From: Nitrobacteraceae bacterium AZCC 1564
GTDB taxonomy: Bacteria; Pseudomonadota; Alphaproteobacteria; Rhizobiales; Xanthobacteraceae
DNA length: 64,000 nt
Direction of reading: 5' to 3'
Assembly: GCA_036924835.1 (NCBI GenBank)
Contig: JBAGRR010000001.1
Span: forward strand, 62,001-126,000
A model generated the notes under the pieces. That model searched no databases. It was not told where the DNA came from and saw only the letters and a program-made list of their open reading frames with translations. How positions within the stretch are numbered: the stretch's first letter is position 1; the number at the start of each line of letters is the position of its first letter. Shown here in pieces: positions 13,920 through 46,202 of this stretch. Position numbers and translations under genes: made by a program.

Positions 13920-15188
13920 ATGAGCGAGCCAGTTCGGACCCGACCCTTTGCGCCCTTCGAGTGGCTGCTGTCGACCCGCTACCTGCGGGCGAGGCGCAAG
14001 GAAGGATTTATTTCGGTCATCGCAGGCTTTTCATTTCTCGGCATCATGCTCGGCGTCGCGACGCTGATCATCGTGATGGCGGTGATGAACGGCTTCCGGA
14101 AGGAATTGCTCGACAAGATTCTCGGTCTCAACGGTCACCTGCTTGTTCAGCCTCTGGAATCGCCACTGACTGACTGGCGCGACGTTGCCGAGCGGATCAG
14201 CGCTGTGGACGGCATTCGGCTGGCTGCGCCGATCGTCGAAGGACAGGCGCTTGCATCATCACCGTTCAATGCCTCCGGCGTTCTGGTGCGTGGCATCCGG
14301 TCGGACGACCTGAACAAGCTCACCTCGATTGCGAAGAACATCAAGCAAGGCACTCTCGAAGGCTTCGATGAGGGGCAAGGCGTTGCCATCGGCCGCCGCC
14401 TCGCGGATCAGTTGTCGTTGCGTGCCGGTGACAGCATCACGCTGGTTGCGCCGCGGGGCGCGATCACCCCGATGGGCACTACGCCGCGGATCAAACCCTA
14501 CAAAGTGGCGGCCGTCTTCGAGATCGGCATGTCCGAGTACGACTCGGCATTCGTTTTCATGCCGCTGGCTGAGGCGCAGGCCTACTTCAACCGCGCCAAT
14601 GACGTGACGTCGATCGAGATTTACACCAACAATCCCGACAAGGTGGACAGCTTCAGGAAGGCCGTCACCGAGGCGGCGCAGCGGCCGATCTTCCTTGTGG
14701 ACTGGCGCCAACGCAACTCCACCTTCTTCAATGCGCTTCAGGTCGAGCGGAATGTGATGTTCCTGATCCTGACGCTGATTGTTCTGGTGGCCGCGCTCAA
14801 CATCGTGTCTGGCCTCATCATGCTGGTGAAGGATAAAGGCAGCGACATCGCCATACTTCGGACCATGGGCGCCAGCCAGGGCTCGATCATGCGGGTGTTT
14901 CTGATCACGGGCGCCGCAATCGGGGTAGTGGGCACGCTGGTCGGATTTATCCTGGGGCTCGTGATCTGTTTGAACATCGAGTCCATCAGGCAGTTCATTT
15001 CCTGGCTCACCAACACGGAGTTGTTCTCCCCCGAGCTTTATTTCCTCTCCAAGCTGCCGGCCGAGGTCGACGTTGGAGAAACCGCTGCGGTCGTGATCAT
15101 GGCGCTCAGCTTGTCATTCCTGGCAACGCTGTACCCGTCATGGCGGGCGGCTCGGCTCGATCCCATTGAAGCCCTCAGGTACGAGTGA
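13920..15188 (+). CDS. lolE: Lipoprotein-releasing ABC transporter permease (LolC/LolE family)
   Basis: Inner membrane permease that extracts lipoproteins from the inner membrane and hands them to LolA. The 422-residue product has one N-terminal transmembrane helix (about residues 25-50), a large periplasmic MacB-like core domain, and three helices in the last 150 residues, as in LolC/LolE. The C-terminal [18 protein letters not shown] motif is the hallmark of the family. Only one permease gene is present, as is usual in alphaproteobacteria. The stop overlaps the lolD start (GTGA at 15185). Confidence 0.93.
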
Positions 15189-15895
15189 GCACTGGGATGG
15201 AGCAAGAGGAGAAGGAAGTTCCGGTTGTTTACCTGCATGACGTCCACAGGCGCTACAAGCAGGGTGAGGGCACGCTGACGATCCTCGACGGCGCCACGTT
15301 GGCGCTGTGGGAAGGGCAATCCGTTGCACTCGTTGCGCCGTCAGGCACTGGAAAGTCCACCCTCCTGCACATCGCCGGTCTGCTTGAACATGCCGATGAA
15401 GGCGAGGTTTATATTGGCGGTGCTGCCACATCGAGCCTTACCGACGCGCAACGCACGCAGATCCGCCGCACTGACATCGGCTTCGTCTATCAATCGCACC
15501 GGCTGTTGCCGGAGTTCTCTGCGCTTGAAAACGTGATGTTGCCGCAGATGATCCGCGGTTTGTCACGCAAGGAAACCGTGAAGCGTTCCCAGGAAATCCT
15601 TTCGTATCTGGGGTTGTCCGAGCGCGTGACCCACCGGCCTGCCGAATTGTCCGGTGGCGAGCAGCAGCGCGTAGCGATCGCGCGCGCGGTCGCCAATGCA
15701 CCGCGTGTTTTGCTGGCCGACGAACCAACCGGAAATCTCGATCCACACACATCGGATCACGTCTTTCAGGCACTGATGCAACTCGTGCGGGCGACGGGGG
15801 TGGCGATGCTGATCGCGACCCACAACATGGAGCTGGCCGCGCGAATGGACCGGCGGGTGTCCATCCAGGAGGGCAAGGTCGTCGAGCTCGACTGA
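15185..15895 (+). CDS. lolD: Lipoprotein-releasing ABC transporter ATPase
   Basis: ATP-binding subunit partnering the upstream permease. The 236-residue product has Walker [10 protein letters not shown] (about residues 48-56), the Q-loop region [16 protein letters not shown], the signature LSGGEQQR, Walker [12 protein letters not shown] and the H-loop ATHNMEL. The GTG at 15185 overlaps the permease stop; an ATG at 15197 is also possible. Confidence 0.94.
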
Positions 15896-15998
15896 GCCAA
15901 ACGAGTATTGAAAACCTACGCTTCTTCAATAGCTTGGCGCCTCTTAAGAATCTGTTAAGTCAGTTGCTTCGCTGCGCTCCGGGCTTGCTTGACTTCGA

Positions 15999-16031
15999 GA
16001 ACAAAAAAAGAACAATGTTCTTATTATGTTC
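15999..16031. promoter_or_regulatory. Two LexA (SOS) boxes in mirror arrangement
   Basis: GAAC-N7-GAAC occupies 15999-16013 and GTTC-N7-GTTC occupies 16017-16031, separated by AAT. Each matches the alphaproteobacterial LexA consensus (GTTC-N7-GTTC or its complement), and the pair forms a 33-base imperfect palindrome. It lies 16 bases before the start of the 32-codon gene at 16048 and 273 bases before dnaE. Identification is by consensus match; binding is inferred. Confidence 0.75.
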
Positions 16032-16047
16032 TTAGTGGAGTCGATCC

Positions 16048-16146
16048 ATGTTGAAGACATTCGTTGAAGAAGCTGCAGCGCTGGCCTCGGTTGTGCTGTT
16101 CGTCGGGATGATTGCGATCTGGGCGCAGGTCATTCCTCAGCTCTAA
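16048..16146 (+). CDS. 32-residue single-pass membrane peptide, putative SOS gene
   Basis: ATG at 16048 with GGAG seven bases upstream; stop TAA at 16144. The peptide begins MLKTFVEEAAALAS and continues as one hydrophobic helix ending near AIWAQVIPQL, so it should be a single-pass inner membrane protein with a short N-terminus. It lies directly behind two LexA boxes and ahead of dnaE. Size, membrane helix and LexA control resemble SidA, the 29-residue SOS division inhibitor of Caulobacter. That parallel is by features only, not by alignment. Confidence 0.72.
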   Translation: MLKTFVEEAAALASVVLFVGMIAIWAQVIPQL

Positions 16147-16304
16147 ATCCCTTGAGGCTGGGGAAAAGGATGATGAGCCCGTTTGTCGGCGTCTTGAACG
16201 TGGACACCTGCAGGTCGAGGCACCACCATCGACCCTGATGAGTCGCTCTGTTTCATCGCCGCTGAGGTGAGGGAGCAGGGTTCTTCCAAAGATTGCAGGT
16301 TGCC

Positions 16305-19300
16305 ATGTCGAACGTCGCACCACCGAAATTAGCCGGATCGGACGCAGGATTCGTGCATCTGCACGTCCATTCCGCTTATTCGTTGCTGCAGGCGTCGATC
16401 ACCATCGCGAAGCTGGCTGAATTGGCAAAGGCCGATCATCAACCGGCGCTGGCGCTGACCGATAACGACAACATGTTCGGTTCGCTGGAGTTCTCCGAGA
16501 AACTGGCGGGGTCCGGCATCCAGCCGATCACTGGTTGCTCGCTGGCGGTTGATTTCGGTGACCAGGATCCCAATGCCCGTAACGCGTTAGCTCCGGCGCG
16601 CATCGTCCTGCTTGCGATGCGCGAGGAGGGTTATCGCAGCCTCATGCGGCTGAACTCCCGGGCGTTTCTTGAAACGCCCACCAACGAGGCTGTGCACATC
16701 AAGATTGAATGGCTGGAGGGTGAGAGCGATCACTTGATCGCACTCACTGGCGGCGCGGAAGGGCCGGTGGCTCAGGCCATCATTGCCGATCAGCCGGCCT
16801 TGGCAGAGGCACGGTGCGACAGGCTCGTGAAGCTGTTCGGTGATCGCCTGTACATCGAACTGCAACGCCACGGCCTCGATAGCGAGCGCAAAAGCGAAGC
16901 CAGCTTGATTGACCTTGCCTATGCCAAGGGGCTGCCACTGGTCGCGACCAACGCGCCGCATTTTGCCAGCACCGACGATTATGAAGCGCACGATGCCTTG
17001 CTCTGCATCGCCGGCGGCAGGCTGGTGTCAGATACCGACCGTCACCAACTCACTCCCGATCACCGGTTCAAGTCACGCGCCGAAATGGCAGTGCTGTTTG
17101 CGGATCTGCCTGAGGCGCTAGCTTCGACAGTTGAGATCGCGCGGCGCTGCGCGTTCCGTCCGAGAACGCGCAAGCCGATCCTGCCGCGCTTTACGGTCGG
17201 AAGCGACAATGCGGCGGATGCGGAAGCGGCGGAAGGCGCCGAGCTGCGCCGTCAGGCCGAGGAGGGATTGAAGCGCAGGCTTACTACGCATGGCCTGTCG
17301 CAAGGGGCGACTGAAGAGACCTACAGCAAGCGTCTCGCCTTCGAACTCGATGTTATTACCCGAATGAACTATTCGGGTTACTTCCTGATCGTGTCGGACT
17401 TCATCAAGTGGGCCAAGGCGCAGGGCATTCCCGTAGGCCCGGGCCGCGGTTCGGGCGCAGGCTCGCTGGTTGCGTATGCGCTGACCATTACCGATCTTGA
17501 TCCGATCCGCTTCGCTTTGCTGTTCGAGCGCTTCCTCAATCCAGAACGCGTGTCGATGCCGGACTTCGACATCGACTTCTGTCAGGACCGGCGCGGCGAA
17601 GTGATCCGCTATGTGCAGGAGCGCTACGGCCGCGATCAGGTTGGGCAGATCATTACATTCGGTACGCTGCAGGCGCGCGGCGTGTTGCGCGATGTGGGCC
17701 GCGTGCTGCAGATGCCGTACGGGCAGGTGGATCGCCTGACGAAACTCGTACCGCAGAATCCGGCTGCGCCGGTGACTCTTGCGGCGGCAATCGAGGGCGA
17801 GCCGAAACTCCAGGCATTTCGTGACGAAGATCCGGTGGTCGCGCGCGCATTCGACATTGCGCAGCGTCTCGAAGGTCTGACGCGCCACGCCTCAACTCAC
17901 GCCGCAGGCATCGTGATCGGCGATCGGCCGCTGAGTGAACTGGTGCCGATGTATCGCGATCCGAAATCGGACATGCCGGTCACGCAGTTCAACATGAAAT
18001 GGGTTGAGCCTGCCGGACTGGTGAAGTTCGACTTCCTCGGCCTGAAGACGTTGACAGTGCTGGACGTCGCCGTGAAGCTCTTGAAGCAACGTAACGTTCA
18101 CGTCGATCTCGCGACGCTGCCGCTGGACGACAAAGAGAGCTACGAAATGCTGGCGCGCGGCGAAACGGTCGGCGTGTTCCAGGTGGAAAGTCAGGGCATG
18201 CGGCGCGCGCTCATCGACATGCGACCCGACCGTTTCGAGGACATCATCGCACTGGTGGCATTGTATCGCCCAGGTCCGATGGCGAACATCCCGACTTATT
18301 GCGCCCGCAAGCATGGCGATGAGGAGCCTGACTATCTCCACCCAATGCTGGAGCCGATTCTGAAGGAAACCTTCGGCGTCATCATCTACCAGGAGCAGGT
18401 GATGCAGATCGCGCAGGTGATGGCCGGCTACTCGCTGGGCGACGCCGACCTGCTGCGGCGCGCCATGGGTAAGAAGATCCGTGCGGAGATGGAAAAGCAG
18501 CGCGAGATCTTTGTCGCGGGTTCGGTCAAGAACGGCATCGCTAAGGGGCAGGCGGAGACGATCTTCGAATTGCTCGCGAAGTTCGCCGACTACGGCTTCA
18601 ACAAGAGCCACGCTGCGGCCTACGCGCTGGTGTCGTATCAGACCGCCTACATGAAGGCGCACTATCCGGTGGAGTTCATCGCAGCATCCATGACGCTCGA
18701 TATGAACAACACCGACAAGCTATCCGAATTCAGGGCCGAGGCGCAGCGCCTCGGCAAGAAGGTCGAACCGCCATCGATCAACCGTTCCGGTTCGACATTC
18801 GAGGTCAGCGGCGACACCATTTACTACGCATTAGCTGCGCTCAAAGGCGTTGGCAGTCAGGCCGTGGATATGATCGTGGAAGCGCGGCGCGAGGGCATGT
18901 TCACGTCACTTGCGGATTTCGCCTCAAAGGTGAATCCGCGGGCGATCAATAAGCGCGTGCTTGAAAGTCTGGCCGCTGCCGGTGCTTTCGACACTCTTGA
19001 TCCCAACCGCGGACGTGTCTTCGCAGGTGCCGACGCGATCCTCGCCGCGTGTCAGCGCAGTCATGAAGCGTCCACGTCGGGACAGAACGATATGTTCGGC
19101 GGTATGGCGGACGCGCCGAGCATTGTATTGCCGAACATCGAGCCATGGCTGCCCGCGGACCGGCTGAGGCGCGAATACGATGCGATCGGCTTCTTCCTGT
19201 CGGGCCATCCGCTCGATGATTACGCAACAGCGCTGAAGCGTCTACGCGTGCAATCGTGGAGTGAATTCTCACGCGCAGTGAAAAGCGGTGCGACAGCCGG

Positions 19301-19835
19301 CCGTGTTGCGGCCACGGTCGTCTCGCGTATGGAGCGCCGGACCAAGACCGGCAACAAGATGGGCATCATCGGTCTGTCAGATCCAACCGGGCACTTCGAA
19401 GCTGTGCTATTCTCTGAAGGGCTTGCACAGTATCGCGATGTGCTGGAGCCAGGCTCTGCGGTGCTGCTGCAGCTCGGAGCTGAACTGCAGGGTGATGACG
19501 TCCGCGCGCGCATTCTCCACGCGGAGCCGCTGGACGATGCGGCCGCTAAAACCCAAAAAGGTCTTCGCATTTTCGTGCGCGATGACAAGCCGCTCGACTC
19601 GATCGCTAAACGGCTTGAGAGTCACCAGACATCGGCGCCGAGCAGCTCAAACGGAATTCCGACTGTGCGGTCCGCACCGATGCAGCCGGGCGGCGACGGC
19701 GAGGTGACGCTGATCATGTTGCTCGACCTGCAGACGGAAGTGGAAATGAAGCTGCCCGGCCGGTTCCGCGTCTCGCCGCAGATTGCGGGAGCCTTGAAGG
19801 CTGTCACCGGCGTGGTGGACGTTCAGACGCTTTAG
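16305..19835 (+). CDS. dnaE: DNA polymerase III alpha subunit
   Basis: Catalytic subunit of the replicative polymerase. The product has 1176 residues from the ATG at 16305. The N-terminal PHP domain starts with HLHVHSAYSLLQ. The palm contains GPGRGSGAGSLVAYAL and the catalytic aspartates in PDFDIDF (residues 419-425). The finger and beta-binding regions follow, with an HhH segment (YYALAALKGVGSQAVDMIVEA begins it) and an OB domain near residues 995-1075. Length and motifs fit the main replicative DnaE1, not the error-prone DnaE2. An upstream TTG at 16293 is less likely as the start. Confidence 0.96.
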   Translation: MSNVAPPKLAGSDAGFVHLHVHSAYSLLQASITIAKLAELAKADHQPALALTDNDNMFGSLEFSEKLAGSGIQPITGCSLAVDFGDQDPNARNALAPARIVLLAMREEGYRSLMRLNSRAFLETPTNEAVHIKIEWLEGESDHLIALTGGAEGPVAQAIIADQPALAEARCDRLVKLFGDRLYIELQRHGLDSERKSEASLIDLAYAKGLPLVATNAPHFASTDDYEAHDALLCIAGGRLVSDTDRHQLTPDHRFKSRAEMAVLFADLPEALASTVEIARRCAFRPRTRKPILPRFTVGSDNAADAEAAEGAELRRQAEEGLKRRLTTHGLSQGATEETYSKRLAFELDVITRMNYSGYFLIVSDFIKWAKAQGIPVGPGRGSGAGSLVAYALTITDLDPIRFALLFERFLNPERVSMPDFDIDFCQDRRGEVIRYVQERYGRDQVGQIITFGTLQARGVLRDVGRVLQMPYGQVDRLTKLVPQNPAAPVTLAAAIEGEPKLQAFRDEDPVVARAFDIAQRLEGLTRHASTHAAGIVIGDRPLSELVPMYRDPKSDMPVTQFNMKWVEPAGLVKFDFLGLKTLTVLDVAVKLLKQRNVHVDLATLPLDDKESYEMLARGETVGVFQVESQGMRRALIDMRPDRFEDIIALVALYRPGPMANIPTYCARKHGDEEPDYLHPMLEPILKETFGVIIYQEQVMQIAQVMAGYSLGDADLLRRAMGKKIRAEMEKQREIFVAGSVKNGIAKGQAETIFELLAKFADYGFNKSHAAAYALVSYQTAYMKAHYPVEFIAASMTLDMNNTDKLSEFRAEAQRLGKKVEPPSINRSGSTFEVSGDTIYYALAALKGVGSQAVDMIVEARREGMFTSLADFASKVNPRAINKRVLESLAAAGAFDTLDPNRGRVFAGADAILAACQRSHEASTSGQNDMFGGMADAPSIVLPNIEPWLPADRLRREYDAIGFFLSGHPLDDYATALKRLRVQSWSEFSRAVKSGATAGRVAATVVSRMERRTKTGNKMGIIGLSDPTGHFEAVLFSEGLAQYRDVLEPGSAVLLQLGAELQGDDVRARILHAEPLDDAAAKTQKGLRIFVRDDKPLDSIAKRLESHQTSAPSSSNGIPTVRSAPMQPGGDGEVTLIMLLDLQTEVEMKLPGRFRVSPQIAGALKAVTGVVDVQTL

Positions 19836-19945: not shown

Positions 19946-19960
19946 GTTCAAACTCTGTTC
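19946..19960. promoter_or_regulatory. LexA-type box upstream of the caspase-like gene
   Basis: The sequence is GTTC-AAACTCT-GTTC, an exact GTTC-N7-GTTC match to the alphaproteobacterial SOS box. It ends 47 bases before the ATG at 20008, in the only gap between dnaE and the caspase-like gene. The match has eight fixed positions, so a chance hit somewhere in 64 kb is possible. Its intergenic, promoter-proximal position makes regulation plausible. Confidence 0.6.
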
Positions 19961-20007: not shown

Positions 20008-22329
20008 ATGCGCGGAATTGTCAGACTTTTGGGTGTCGCGACACTTTTGCTCTTTGTTGCCGGTGTTTCGGCATTGCACGCGCAGGAGCAGGAGAAGCGC
20101 ATCGCACTGGTCATCGGCAATGGCAACTACGCGAATTCACCTCTCTCGACCGCCGCCAATGACGCAGGCCTGATCGCGCAGACACTGCAGGCCGCGGGCT
20201 TTGATGTTGTCGGCGCGCGCGACCTCGATGGCGAAACCTTGCGACAGACGTTCCGCGATTTCATCAAGAAAGCGCAATCGTCCGGATCGGGAACCGTGGC
20301 TTTCGTCTATGTTGCTGGATACGGCGTGCAGCTGGCGGGCGAAAACTATTTCATGCCCGTCGACGCCAATGCGCAGCGTGACACGGACATTCCGGTCGAG
20401 GGGCTGCGCATCGCCGATTACATGCGCCAGCTCTCGGCGTTGCCGCTGAAGACGACAGTGTTTGTCCTCGATGCTGCGCACACCCATCCCTTTGGGAAGG
20501 AAGGTCAGCCGTTGGCTGGCGGTCTTGCGCTGATCGAGCCTGAGCCGAAGAGTCTCGTGGCATTCAACGCGACACCCGGAACTGTGGGGCCGAATGAGAC
20601 CGGATCGTATGGCGCCTATGCGCAGGCTCTGGCGGAAATGATCCGTGCCGGGGGCATCGACTTGCCCGAAGTGTTCAATCGCGTGCGCCTGCGCGTAAAT
20701 GAGGTGACCAAGGGCGCCCAAGTGCCGTGGGACGCGCAAAAGCTCGAGGGACAATTCCTGTTTTTTGAGCGTGCGTCGGATGCGCCGGTCGTGGCTGCGG
20801 ATCAGGATGCGGCCCAACGGTCAAAGCCCATTCGAGAGATGGACGCGAGGGATGCATATATAGCAGCGCTCGAACGAGACACGCTGGCCGATTACGAAGC
20901 CTTTCTCGCTGCGTTTCCGGACGATCCGATGGCGAAGCGGGTGAGGGCGATCGTTGCTGCGCGTCGCGAGGCCATTACGTGGCGGCGAACGTACAAAGCC
21001 GATACGTCGCAAGCTTACTGGTCGTACCTTAAACGCTATCCGCGCGGCCCGCATGCGGCCGATGCGCGCCGCCGGCTCGCCATCCTTGCAGCCGCGACTG
21101 AGCCGCCGCCGACCTTCGACGAGTATGCCTATGATGTGCCACCTCCGCCGCCAGACGAACTCGCCTATTTCGACCAGCCAGTGCTGATGTTCGGCGATCC
21201 GGTCTACGATTTTGCGCCGCCACCACCGCCTGCAGTGTTTTTCCTGCCGCCGCCGCCAGATGATTTCGTCACCCTGGAGCCGCCGCTTGTGGTGGACAGC
21301 GGCATCTTCTACCTGCCTCAACCGGTATTTGTGCCTATCCCGGTCTTCGTCCGTCCGCCGGTTTATGTGCGACCGCCGATCAATCGTTTCCTGTTCAGGA
21401 ACATCCACAATCGGGAGGTCATCAACACCATCATCAATCGCGGGCCGCCACCCGGGGCGGGCGGCGGGTTCACGCCGGTTCCCCGCGGAAACGTGGCGGC
21501 GGCTCTGCAACGGCCTGCATTACAACGACCTGCATTTGCTCCCGGCCTACCGCCGTCGGCAACGCGCAGGGCCAATCTGATCCGCCAGGGTCGAGTGGCG
21601 GCTCCGGCCGGGGTCATCCCCGGTCGCGGCCGGCCAGGTGGTCCGGGCCAGCCGGCAGCGATTGGCGCCCGTCCTGGTCAGGCACTTCCTGGGCAGCCGG
21701 CTGCTCCCAATGCCGCTGCTCCCAACGTCAATGTGAGGCCTGGTCAGCCCTTGCCTGGCGCTGACAGGCGGCCGCCTGTTCCTGGGGTCGCTGCTCAGCC
21801 GCCCGCAGCAGCGGGACGCGAGGGCCAGCGACCCGATCGCGGCGCGCGCGGTCCAAATGCAGGCGCCGCTCCCGGTTCCAGACCCGATGTGCAGCAATTT
21901 GACCGGCGCCGGGGCGGGCCGAACGGTCGACCTTCACCACAGCTCCAGGCACAACCTCGGGCCCAGCGCCCGGCTCCGCAGCAGCGTCCTCAAGCCACTC
22001 AGCGTCCTCAGATCCAGCGGCCAGCGCAAGCTGCGAGACCACAGATGGCGCCCAGACCGCAGCCGCAAGTCCAGCGGCCAGCGATGGCTCCGCGGCCCCA
22101 AATGGCACCTCGTCCTCAAATGGCACCTCGTCCTCAGATGGCGCCGCGTCCGCAGATGGCTGCTCCTCGTCCGCAGATGGCTCCGCGCCCTCAAATGGCG
22201 CCGCGTCCGCAGATGGCTGCTCCTCGTCCGCAGATGGCTCCGCGCCCTCAAATGGCGCCGCGGCCGGCAGCTCCCGCACGCCCGGCGGCTCCGGCGGCTC
22301 CGGCGGCGCGAAGGCTTCCGGGCCAGTAA
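20008..22329 (+). CDS. Secreted caspase-fold (peptidase C14-like) protein lacking the catalytic dyad
   Basis: Precursor of 773 residues from the ATG at 20008 (AGGAC ribosome site upstream; a TTG at 19990 is an alternative). It has a signal peptide ending at ALHA (residue 25), then a caspase-like p20 domain at about residues 29-260 (KRIALVIGNGNY, then NDAGLIAQTLQAAGFDVV). The catalytic His block reads YVAGYGVQ, with Tyr105 in place of His. The Cys block reads LDAAHTHPF, with Ala157 in place of Cys. Both catalytic residues are therefore gone while the fold motifs remain. A helical region (about 285-370) and a long Pro/Arg/Ala-rich tail with MAPRPQ repeats follow. Probably a periplasmic scaffold or sensor; function unknown. 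Confidence 0.88.
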   Translation: MRGIVRLLGVATLLLFVAGVSALHAQEQEKRIALVIGNGNYANSPLSTAANDAGLIAQTLQAAGFDVVGARDLDGETLRQTFRDFIKKAQSSGSGTVAFVYVAGYGVQLAGENYFMPVDANAQRDTDIPVEGLRIADYMRQLSALPLKTTVFVLDAAHTHPFGKEGQPLAGGLALIEPEPKSLVAFNATPGTVGPNETGSYGAYAQALAEMIRAGGIDLPEVFNRVRLRVNEVTKGAQVPWDAQKLEGQFLFFERASDAPVVAADQDAAQRSKPIREMDARDAYIAALERDTLADYEAFLAAFPDDPMAKRVRAIVAARREAITWRRTYKADTSQAYWSYLKRYPRGPHAADARRRLAILAAATEPPPTFDEYAYDVPPPPPDELAYFDQPVLMFGDPVYDFAPPPPPAVFFLPPPPDDFVTLEPPLVVDSGIFYLPQPVFVPIPVFVRPPVYVRPPINRFLFRNIHNREVINTIINRGPPPGAGGGFTPVPRGNVAAALQRPALQRPAFAPGLPPSATRRANLIRQGRVAAPAGVIPGRGRPGGPGQPAAIGARPGQALPGQPAAPNAAAPNVNVRPGQPLPGADRRPPVPGVAAQPPAAAGREGQRPDRGARGPNAGAAPGSRPDVQQFDRRRGGPNGRPSPQLQAQPRAQRPAPQQRPQATQRPQIQRPAQAARPQMAPRPQPQVQRPAMAPRPQMAPRPQMAPRPQMAPRPQMAAPRPQMAPRPQMAPRPQMAAPRPQMAPRPQMAPRPAAPARPAAPAAPAARRLPGQ
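22138..22251 (+). repeat. 57-base tandem duplication in the caspase-like gene
   Basis: Two identical 57-base units (22138-22194 and 22195-22251), in frame, each encoding three MAPRPQ/MAAPRPQ-type motifs. Further less exact units extend on both sides. The identity at third codon positions points to a recent duplication. Confidence 0.9.
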
Positions 22330-45385: not shown

Positions 45386-46093
45386 TTAGTACTTCCGGTA
45401 AAGCCCGATCAGCTTGCCCTGGATGCGCACGCGGTTCGGCGGGAGAATGCGGACCTCGTAAGCCGCATTGGCTGGCTCCAGCGCGATCGAAGCGCCACGG
45501 CGCCGAAACCGCTTGAGTGTGGCTTCTTCCTCATCGATGAGCGCCACAACAATGTCACCGGTATCCGCGCTTTCGTTGCGCTGAATGAGCACGGTGTCGC
45601 CGTCGAGAATACCTGCTTCCACCATAGAGTCGCCGCGGACCTCCAACGCGTAGTGTTCGCCGGTGCCGAGCATATCGGGTGGGACGCTGATGGTGTGGCT
45701 GCGGGTCTGCAGCGCCTCAATGGGCGTACCGGCGGCGATTCGGCCCATGACAGGCACAGCCACCGGAAAGCTCGACTCGTCCTCGCTGGTCGATGGCGTG
45801 CTGGTGCGGATCTTGCCAAGATTGCCTTCGATGACGCTGGGTGTGAAGCCGCGTCGCGTGTTGCCGCCGTTGGCGCCAAGTTCAGGGAGCTTGATGACCT
45901 CGATGGCGCGGGCGCGATTAGCGAGGCGCCGGATGAAGCCTCGTTCCTCCAGCGCGGTAATCAGACGGTGAATGCCGGACTTGGAACGCAGATCCAGCGC
46001 ATCCTTCATTTCGTCGAAGGAGGGAGGAACCCCGGCCTCTTTCAGCCGCTCATTGATGAACCGCAAAAGCTCATACTGTTTGCGCGTCAGCAT
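45386..46093 (-). CDS. lexA: LexA repressor (SOS response regulator)
   Basis: Represses DNA-damage genes and self-cleaves when RecA is activated. The 235-residue product from ATG 46093 (GGGGAG site seven bases upstream) has an N-terminal winged helix (residues 1-65, starting [17 protein letters not shown]). The cleavage site is Ala121-Gly122 (in [10 protein letters not shown]). The Ser156 / Lys194 dyad lies in RGDSMVEAG and EEATLKRF. Upstream in-frame codons to 46144 are not needed. It is presumably autoregulated through the box at 46188. Confidence 0.97.
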
Positions 46094-46187
46094 CTGAATG
46101 CTCCCCAAATATCCCGTGATCGGAGTGGCTCGTTGTTCTTTCATTTCAAGCGAGTCACTCGAAACAAATCATGAACGAACACTATAT

Positions 46188-46202
46188 GTTCCATATGTGT
46201 TC
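46188..46202. promoter_or_regulatory. LexA box upstream of lexA
   Basis: GTTC-CATATGT-GTTC, an exact GTTC-N7-GTTC site 95 bases upstream of the lexA ATG in an AT-rich promoter region. Two further GAAC motifs at 46173 and 46177 lie next to it. Autoregulation of lexA is the rule in this class, so this site anchors the consensus used for the other boxes in the window. Confidence 0.85.

Follow-up and report, generated by a model that had tools for sequence, protein, structure and literature searches.

A single-helix peptide gene behind mirrored twin LexA-type boxes before dnaE looks like a remote homologue of Caulobacter SidA

SidA of Caulobacter, a peptide that arrests the division of cells with damaged DNA, is the described system that stands closest to the locus studied here. 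The SidA gene is given as CCNA_02004 in PMC10769358, a correction of its annotated start is described in PMC4117421, and the LexA site of C. crescentus is printed as GTTCN7GTTC in PMC9578287. In C. vibrioides DSM 9893, the 29-residue open reading frame (ORF) before dnaE matched the NCBIfam SidA model (NF033228) over its full length with 72.4 bits against a cut-off of 35, and thus SidA itself sits before dnaE. We searched 17 of 80 named loci, having reached Caulobacteraceae genomes through DnaN, and 16 gave a DnaE match; a SidA-type ORF lay directly 5' of dnaE at all 16 (C. vibrioides plus 15 others). These ORFs had 29 to 30 residues, with lengthening by an earlier ATG in five, and 10 of the 16 loci carried an exact LexA box while six lacked one. 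Our literature search, which was partial in depth, found no report of SidA outside Caulobacter.

In the window (the 64-kb stretch of DNA analyzed here), 409 bases lie between the end of a lolD-like ABC ATPase gene (15185..15895, plus strand; ABC_tran, with best PDB matches to LolD) and the ATG of dnaE, which encodes the replicative DNA polymerase III alpha subunit (16305..19835, plus strand; PHP, DNA_pol3_alpha, finger and HHH_6 domains). The ATG at 16305 was our choice of dnaE start; the listed ORF opens with TTG at 16293. Within the spacer follow, in order, TTGACT (15989), GAACAAAAAAAGAAC, AAT, GTTCTTATTATGTTC, GGAG and an ATG (16048) that opens a 32-codon ORF reading MLKTFVEEAAALASVVLFVGMIAIWAQVIPQL (16048..16146, plus strand). 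A scan of 15880-16320 for sigma-70-like sites yielded a single one, which consists of TTGACT (15989-15994), 16 bases, and AACAAT (16011-16016), with 9 of 12 matches against a mean of 0.2 sites in shuffled sequences, and it is the predicted plus-strand promoter of the peptide gene (15989..16016). Given that this site is the sole candidate, LexA-type box 1 (GAACAAAAAAAGAAC, 15999..16013, GTTC-N7-GTTC on the minus strand) falls inside the promoter spacer, and box 2 (GTTCTTATTATGTTC, 16017..16031, plus strand), its mirror image, falls over the predicted transcription start. The initial annotation had described GAAC-N7-GAAC and GTTC-N7-GTTC three bases apart, which is what we read here, with AAT as the three bases. 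It had also described a 33-base palindrome, which is correct for the mirrored GAAC/GTTC half-sites and fails at 5 of the 33 positions (four in the N7 stretches and one central). The 16 bases that it placed between box 2 and a 32-codon gene with a ribosome site agree with our coordinates, given an ATG at 16048 and a GGAG read at 16037..16040 (plus strand), 7 bases 5' of that ATG. An Rfam search of 15880-16340 returned only a sub-threshold CRISPR-repeat match, which we took as chance. The lexA gene of the same genome also lies inside the window (45386..46093, minus strand; LexA_DNA_bind over its cut-off), and a GAACACATATGGAAC box (46188-46202) stands 94 bases 5' of its ATG. On the minus strand, 46177-46202 reads as the lexA box followed by an extra GTTC half-site (GAAC-N7-GAAC-N7-GTTC).

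The mirrored pair exceeds what chance would yield, and a single box hardly does. Single boxes numbered six in the window against 2.2 expected, a count reached by 4 of 100 shuffles, and genome-wide the exact GTTC-N7-GTTC box occurred 179 times against 183 for a reversed control. Both counts are close to background, and single-box statistics were dropped as evidence. The mirrored pair at exact spacing occurs at one site in this genome. It was found in 24 of 397 genomes across the order, against 1 of 397 for the reversed control, and these 24 comprise 17 of 19 genomes of the host family, all five of a second family (f22), and two others in which the context differs. Within the host family, the exact pair was present in 114 of 198 genomes, against none for the reversed control among the matches listed, and 84 of the 198 lacked it in exact form; within the genus it was present in 12 of 12 genomes, this one included. 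Among the 30 loci fetched from the peptide search described below, box 1 was kept in all 30, and both boxes, with starts 18 bases apart, in 29, the exception (L029) retaining box 1 only. When 15 loci from the pair search were added, TTGAC preceded box 1 by 4 to 6 bases in 44 of 45 loci, and the three letters between the boxes were A or T throughout those 44. We considered that the boxes and the ORF could be chance features of an AT-rich spacer, a view that gains from the background frequency of single boxes and runs against the conservation of the pair, its spacing, the TTGAC and the frame, and against the reversed-motif and shuffle controls; we regard the family-wide conservation as refuting it, and its probability as negligible. 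Mirrored pairs also occur outside the host family and f22 at L062 (G341) and L061 (G114), without the peptide downstream; a frame of about 400 amino acids follows on one strand of each.

Used by itself as a query, the peptide matched 35 of 61 genomes at E<=1, 33 of them also at E<=2e-4. These 33 were 26 of 29 genomes in the genus (its own included), 6 of 8 in the remaining genera of the family and 1 of 24 in other families. A frame of 32 to 33 amino acids opened in all 30 fetched loci. Among 43 distinct sequences, pairwise differences by codon position numbered 5264, 1814 and 12745, and against the peptide gene of the window dN ranged from 0.01 to 0.29 and dS from 0.17 to 1.4 (one dS was not computable). 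The low dN relative to dS, together with the codon-position bias, indicates that the frame is under selection as a protein, with strong purifying selection. The initial annotation had tied its reading to conservation beyond close strains and to a single membrane helix. Absence of such conservation, which it named as a refutation, was not what we saw: the ORF persists throughout the family at dN values well below dS. AlphaFold2 predicted one helix over residues 2-31 of 32 with a mean pLDDT of 96. Pfam held no family for either the window peptide or C. vibrioides SidA. The names given to protein-database matches were all "hypothetical protein" save for one unreadable entry, and most matches carried no name, so such genes are easy to overlook.

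The place of the peptide gene close to dnaE raises a different reading, in which the boxes place dnaE itself under SOS induction and the peptide serves only as a leader, translated in order to tune dnaE. The DnaE start was visible downstream of the peptide in 28 of 30 fetched loci, that is, wherever DnaE was seen the two genes were close, and the window showed no terminator-like site separating them, so that some read-through into dnaE is possible. Against this, dnaE appears to have a promoter of its own (16201..16244, plus strand), predicted from TGGACA (16201-16206), 17 bases, CACCAT (16224-16229) and a GANTC site (GAGTC, 16240-16244). The same layout, TGGAC[AT]-17-CACC[AG]T (16 in one locus) with GANTC 8 to 11 bases after, was kept in 39 of 45 loci, and we presume from the GANTC-containing arrangement a cell-cycle control of the CcrM/GcrA kind. 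Given this conserved promoter, the peptide is probably what the boxes chiefly control, and dnaE is probably not their main target, as judged from sequence. The amino-acid sequence of the peptide is moreover conserved beyond what the mere act of translation would call for, and its profile relationship to SidA, given below, also speaks against a leader. In genus g74, the four loci that we read (L303-L306) showed no DnaE start within 1.5 kb downstream of the peptide, and TTGAC and one or two LexA boxes (some overlapping) still preceded it; the peptide and the box therefore associate even without dnaE, which is a further argument against a leader that tunes that gene. Taken together, we hold the leader reading to be very unlikely and favor a peptide that is itself the regulated product.

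Two other features of this neighborhood were observed. A conserved GGGGAAAA stretch lies between the peptide gene and the dnaE promoter. Behind dnaE is a gene with a caspase domain (Peptidase_C14; 20008-22329, plus strand), with a LexA-type box of its own, GTTCAAACTCTGTTC, at 19946-19960. Upstream of this gene a box was retained at 17 of 23 loci from the genus and at 18 of 30 overall, against 0 of 30 for the reversed motif. This gene may be an SOS-controlled caspase-like gene.

We took about 900 bases 5' of dnaE from each of 60 order genomes, which represent 51 families and were drawn from the 107 in which DnaE was matched, and from each of 40 genomes of other orders, drawn from 124 such class genomes outside the order, favoring complete genomes and long contigs. 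A locus was counted when a GAAC-N7-GAAC box was followed within 110 bases by an ORF of 20 to 50 amino acids with a strongly hydrophobic stretch. Both elements were found in 28 of the 60 order loci (24 of 51 families) and in 10 of the 40 loci from other orders; the reversed motif gave 0 and 0, and shuffled DNA gave means of 0.02 and 0.01 over 100 rounds. The remaining 32 and 30 loci did not qualify, with looser versions in some, and a box in the other orientation accompanied such an ORF in two order loci and two loci of other orders. The box alone was present before dnaE in 31 of 60 and 11 of 40 loci, respectively, against 0 and 1 for the reversed motif alone. Most loci had one box; the exact mirrored pair was found in the host family and f22, plus two odd cases. 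The peptides share a core consisting of an acidic residue, A, L or F, a near-invariant F and often W. Conserved synteny with dnaE, which the initial annotation had proposed as a check, is thus borne out by LexA-box peptides before dnaE in 24 of the 51 order families sampled. A phylum-wide search with the peptide profile alone matched 31 of 299 genomes. The two listed matches outside the class (G883 and G918) were partial, weak and inside longer frames, and we discarded them as chance.

The sequence of the peptide itself points to SidA. The SidA model was its only NCBIfam match at E<=1 among 18950 models, with 14.5 bits and an E value of 0.026 (residues 8-28 on model positions 7-27 of 29), and the peptide was 31% identical to C. 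vibrioides SidA over the alignment. Formal membership in SidA is withheld, given that the match misses the curated cut-off of 35. We then ran the comparison in reverse, which is the stronger test, with a profile of 28 peptides from the order that included no Caulobacter sequence; we trimmed the peptides to the start nearest the conserved block, and those of f20 and f49 and one from f22 were taken from outside the strict box-plus-ORF list. This profile scored C. vibrioides SidA at 23.1 bits, whereas the maximum was 12.8 among 703 membrane segments, cut as overlapping windows from long reading frames of the window, and 16.7 among 5500 shuffled Caulobacteraceae peptides. Of the 16 Caulobacteraceae peptides, 11 entered this test (the 29- to 30-residue form, with near-duplicates dropped); 10 scored above every membrane segment, and all 11 above their own 500 shuffles. 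Among 10 peptides from other orders, six scored above every membrane segment, and four did no better than the best segment, so that position and box alone support those four. The window peptide thus has about 30 residues, one predicted helix, a LexA-type box, a place before dnaE and a profile relationship, all of which are traits of SidA, and we list 16048..16146 as a SidA-like single-helix peptide gene on the basis of purifying selection, the helix, the sub-cut-off NCBIfam match and the profile link. The guess in the initial annotation of a SidA-like, LexA-controlled membrane peptide gains support from the position of SidA before dnaE in Caulobacter and from these profile scores.

A short single-helix peptide behind LexA boxes could also be an SOS toxin of the TisB/DinQ kind, which would depolarize the membrane to slow growth rather than act as a specific inhibitor of the divisome, and DinQ is described as a toxic SOS-controlled single-helix peptide (PMC3567139). 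A weak consensus test found no minus-strand promoter-like site for an antisense RNA in 15880-16320. Both position and profile tie the peptide to SidA, which is described as acting on FtsW (PMC4211646). We regard a toxin as a very unlikely explanation and a SidA-like mode of action as the best reading of the function of the peptide.

Collectively, our findings suggest that the locus carries a distant homologue of SidA within a sidA-dnaE arrangement passed down by descent. We consider it quite likely that the peptide is a remote homologue of SidA, and predict that it stays silent under LexA repression and, after damage, would halt septum synthesis in the inner membrane, probably via FtsW. We hypothesize that LexA dimers would bind side by side, one between -35 and -10 and the other over the start point, and that LexA on both boxes would shut the promoter and repress it tightly. 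Two boxes could lower the leak, which would be useful if a few molecules of the peptide were harmful. Upon DNA damage, RecA-driven cleavage of LexA would free the promoter, and the released peptide would enter the inner membrane and, in the manner of SidA, arrest septal synthesis, with FtsW its probable target and dnaE presumably read mainly from its own downstream promoter. A broader proposal, which we put forward as speculative and rather doubtful, is that SidA, rather than being peculiar to Caulobacter, is the most familiar branch of an SOS checkpoint that was linked to dnaE in ancestral Alphaproteobacteria. In this lineage it would have become a LexA-programmed cluster in which a mirrored twin operator drives a division-stop peptide, dnaE is read from its own cell-cycle promoter, and a LexA-box caspase-like gene behind dnaE would decide on death if repair fails. 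Given that LexA-box peptides lie before dnaE in many other Alphaproteobacteria, the checkpoint would reach far beyond the single genus from which it is known. Should the peptides prove to be relatives of SidA, a single LexA-driven inhibitor in the membrane could account for the stop in division after damage in many Alphaproteobacteria, symbionts included, and the many natural variants would allow its action on FtsW to be compared. With its fixed 18-base spacing, the mirrored operator also lends itself well to tests of cooperative binding by LexA.

Several described systems bear comparison with this locus. TisB of Escherichia coli is an SOS-controlled single-helix peptide. DinQ of the same species is likewise described as one, and differs in being a toxin with an antisense RNA; to our knowledge, toxins of the TisB/DinQ type have no link with dnaE. 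YneA of Bacillus subtilis and SosA of Staphylococcus aureus are longer proteins. Both are described as SOS-induced membrane division inhibitors, but they belong to another phylum, and the LexA site in those species is given as CGAACN4GTTCG (PMC9578287). DidA of C. crescentus is described as a small single-helix division inhibitor of the inner membrane, but it is set apart by its description as a 71-residue, SOS-independent protein that acts via FtsN (PMC4211646). SidA of C. crescentus (NF033228) resembles the window peptide in its length of about 30 residues, its single helix, its upstream LexA-type box and its place directly before dnaE. It differs in three respects: the operator here is a mirrored twin with fixed spacing, in contrast to the box layout of Caulobacter; lolD lies upstream here, whereas in C. 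vibrioides a different gene appears to occupy the sequence immediately 5'; and the sequence of the window peptide falls below the curated SidA cut-off, with the division block here a prediction. The SidA kind is therefore known, and what is new is a likely remote homologue behind a mirrored twin operator.
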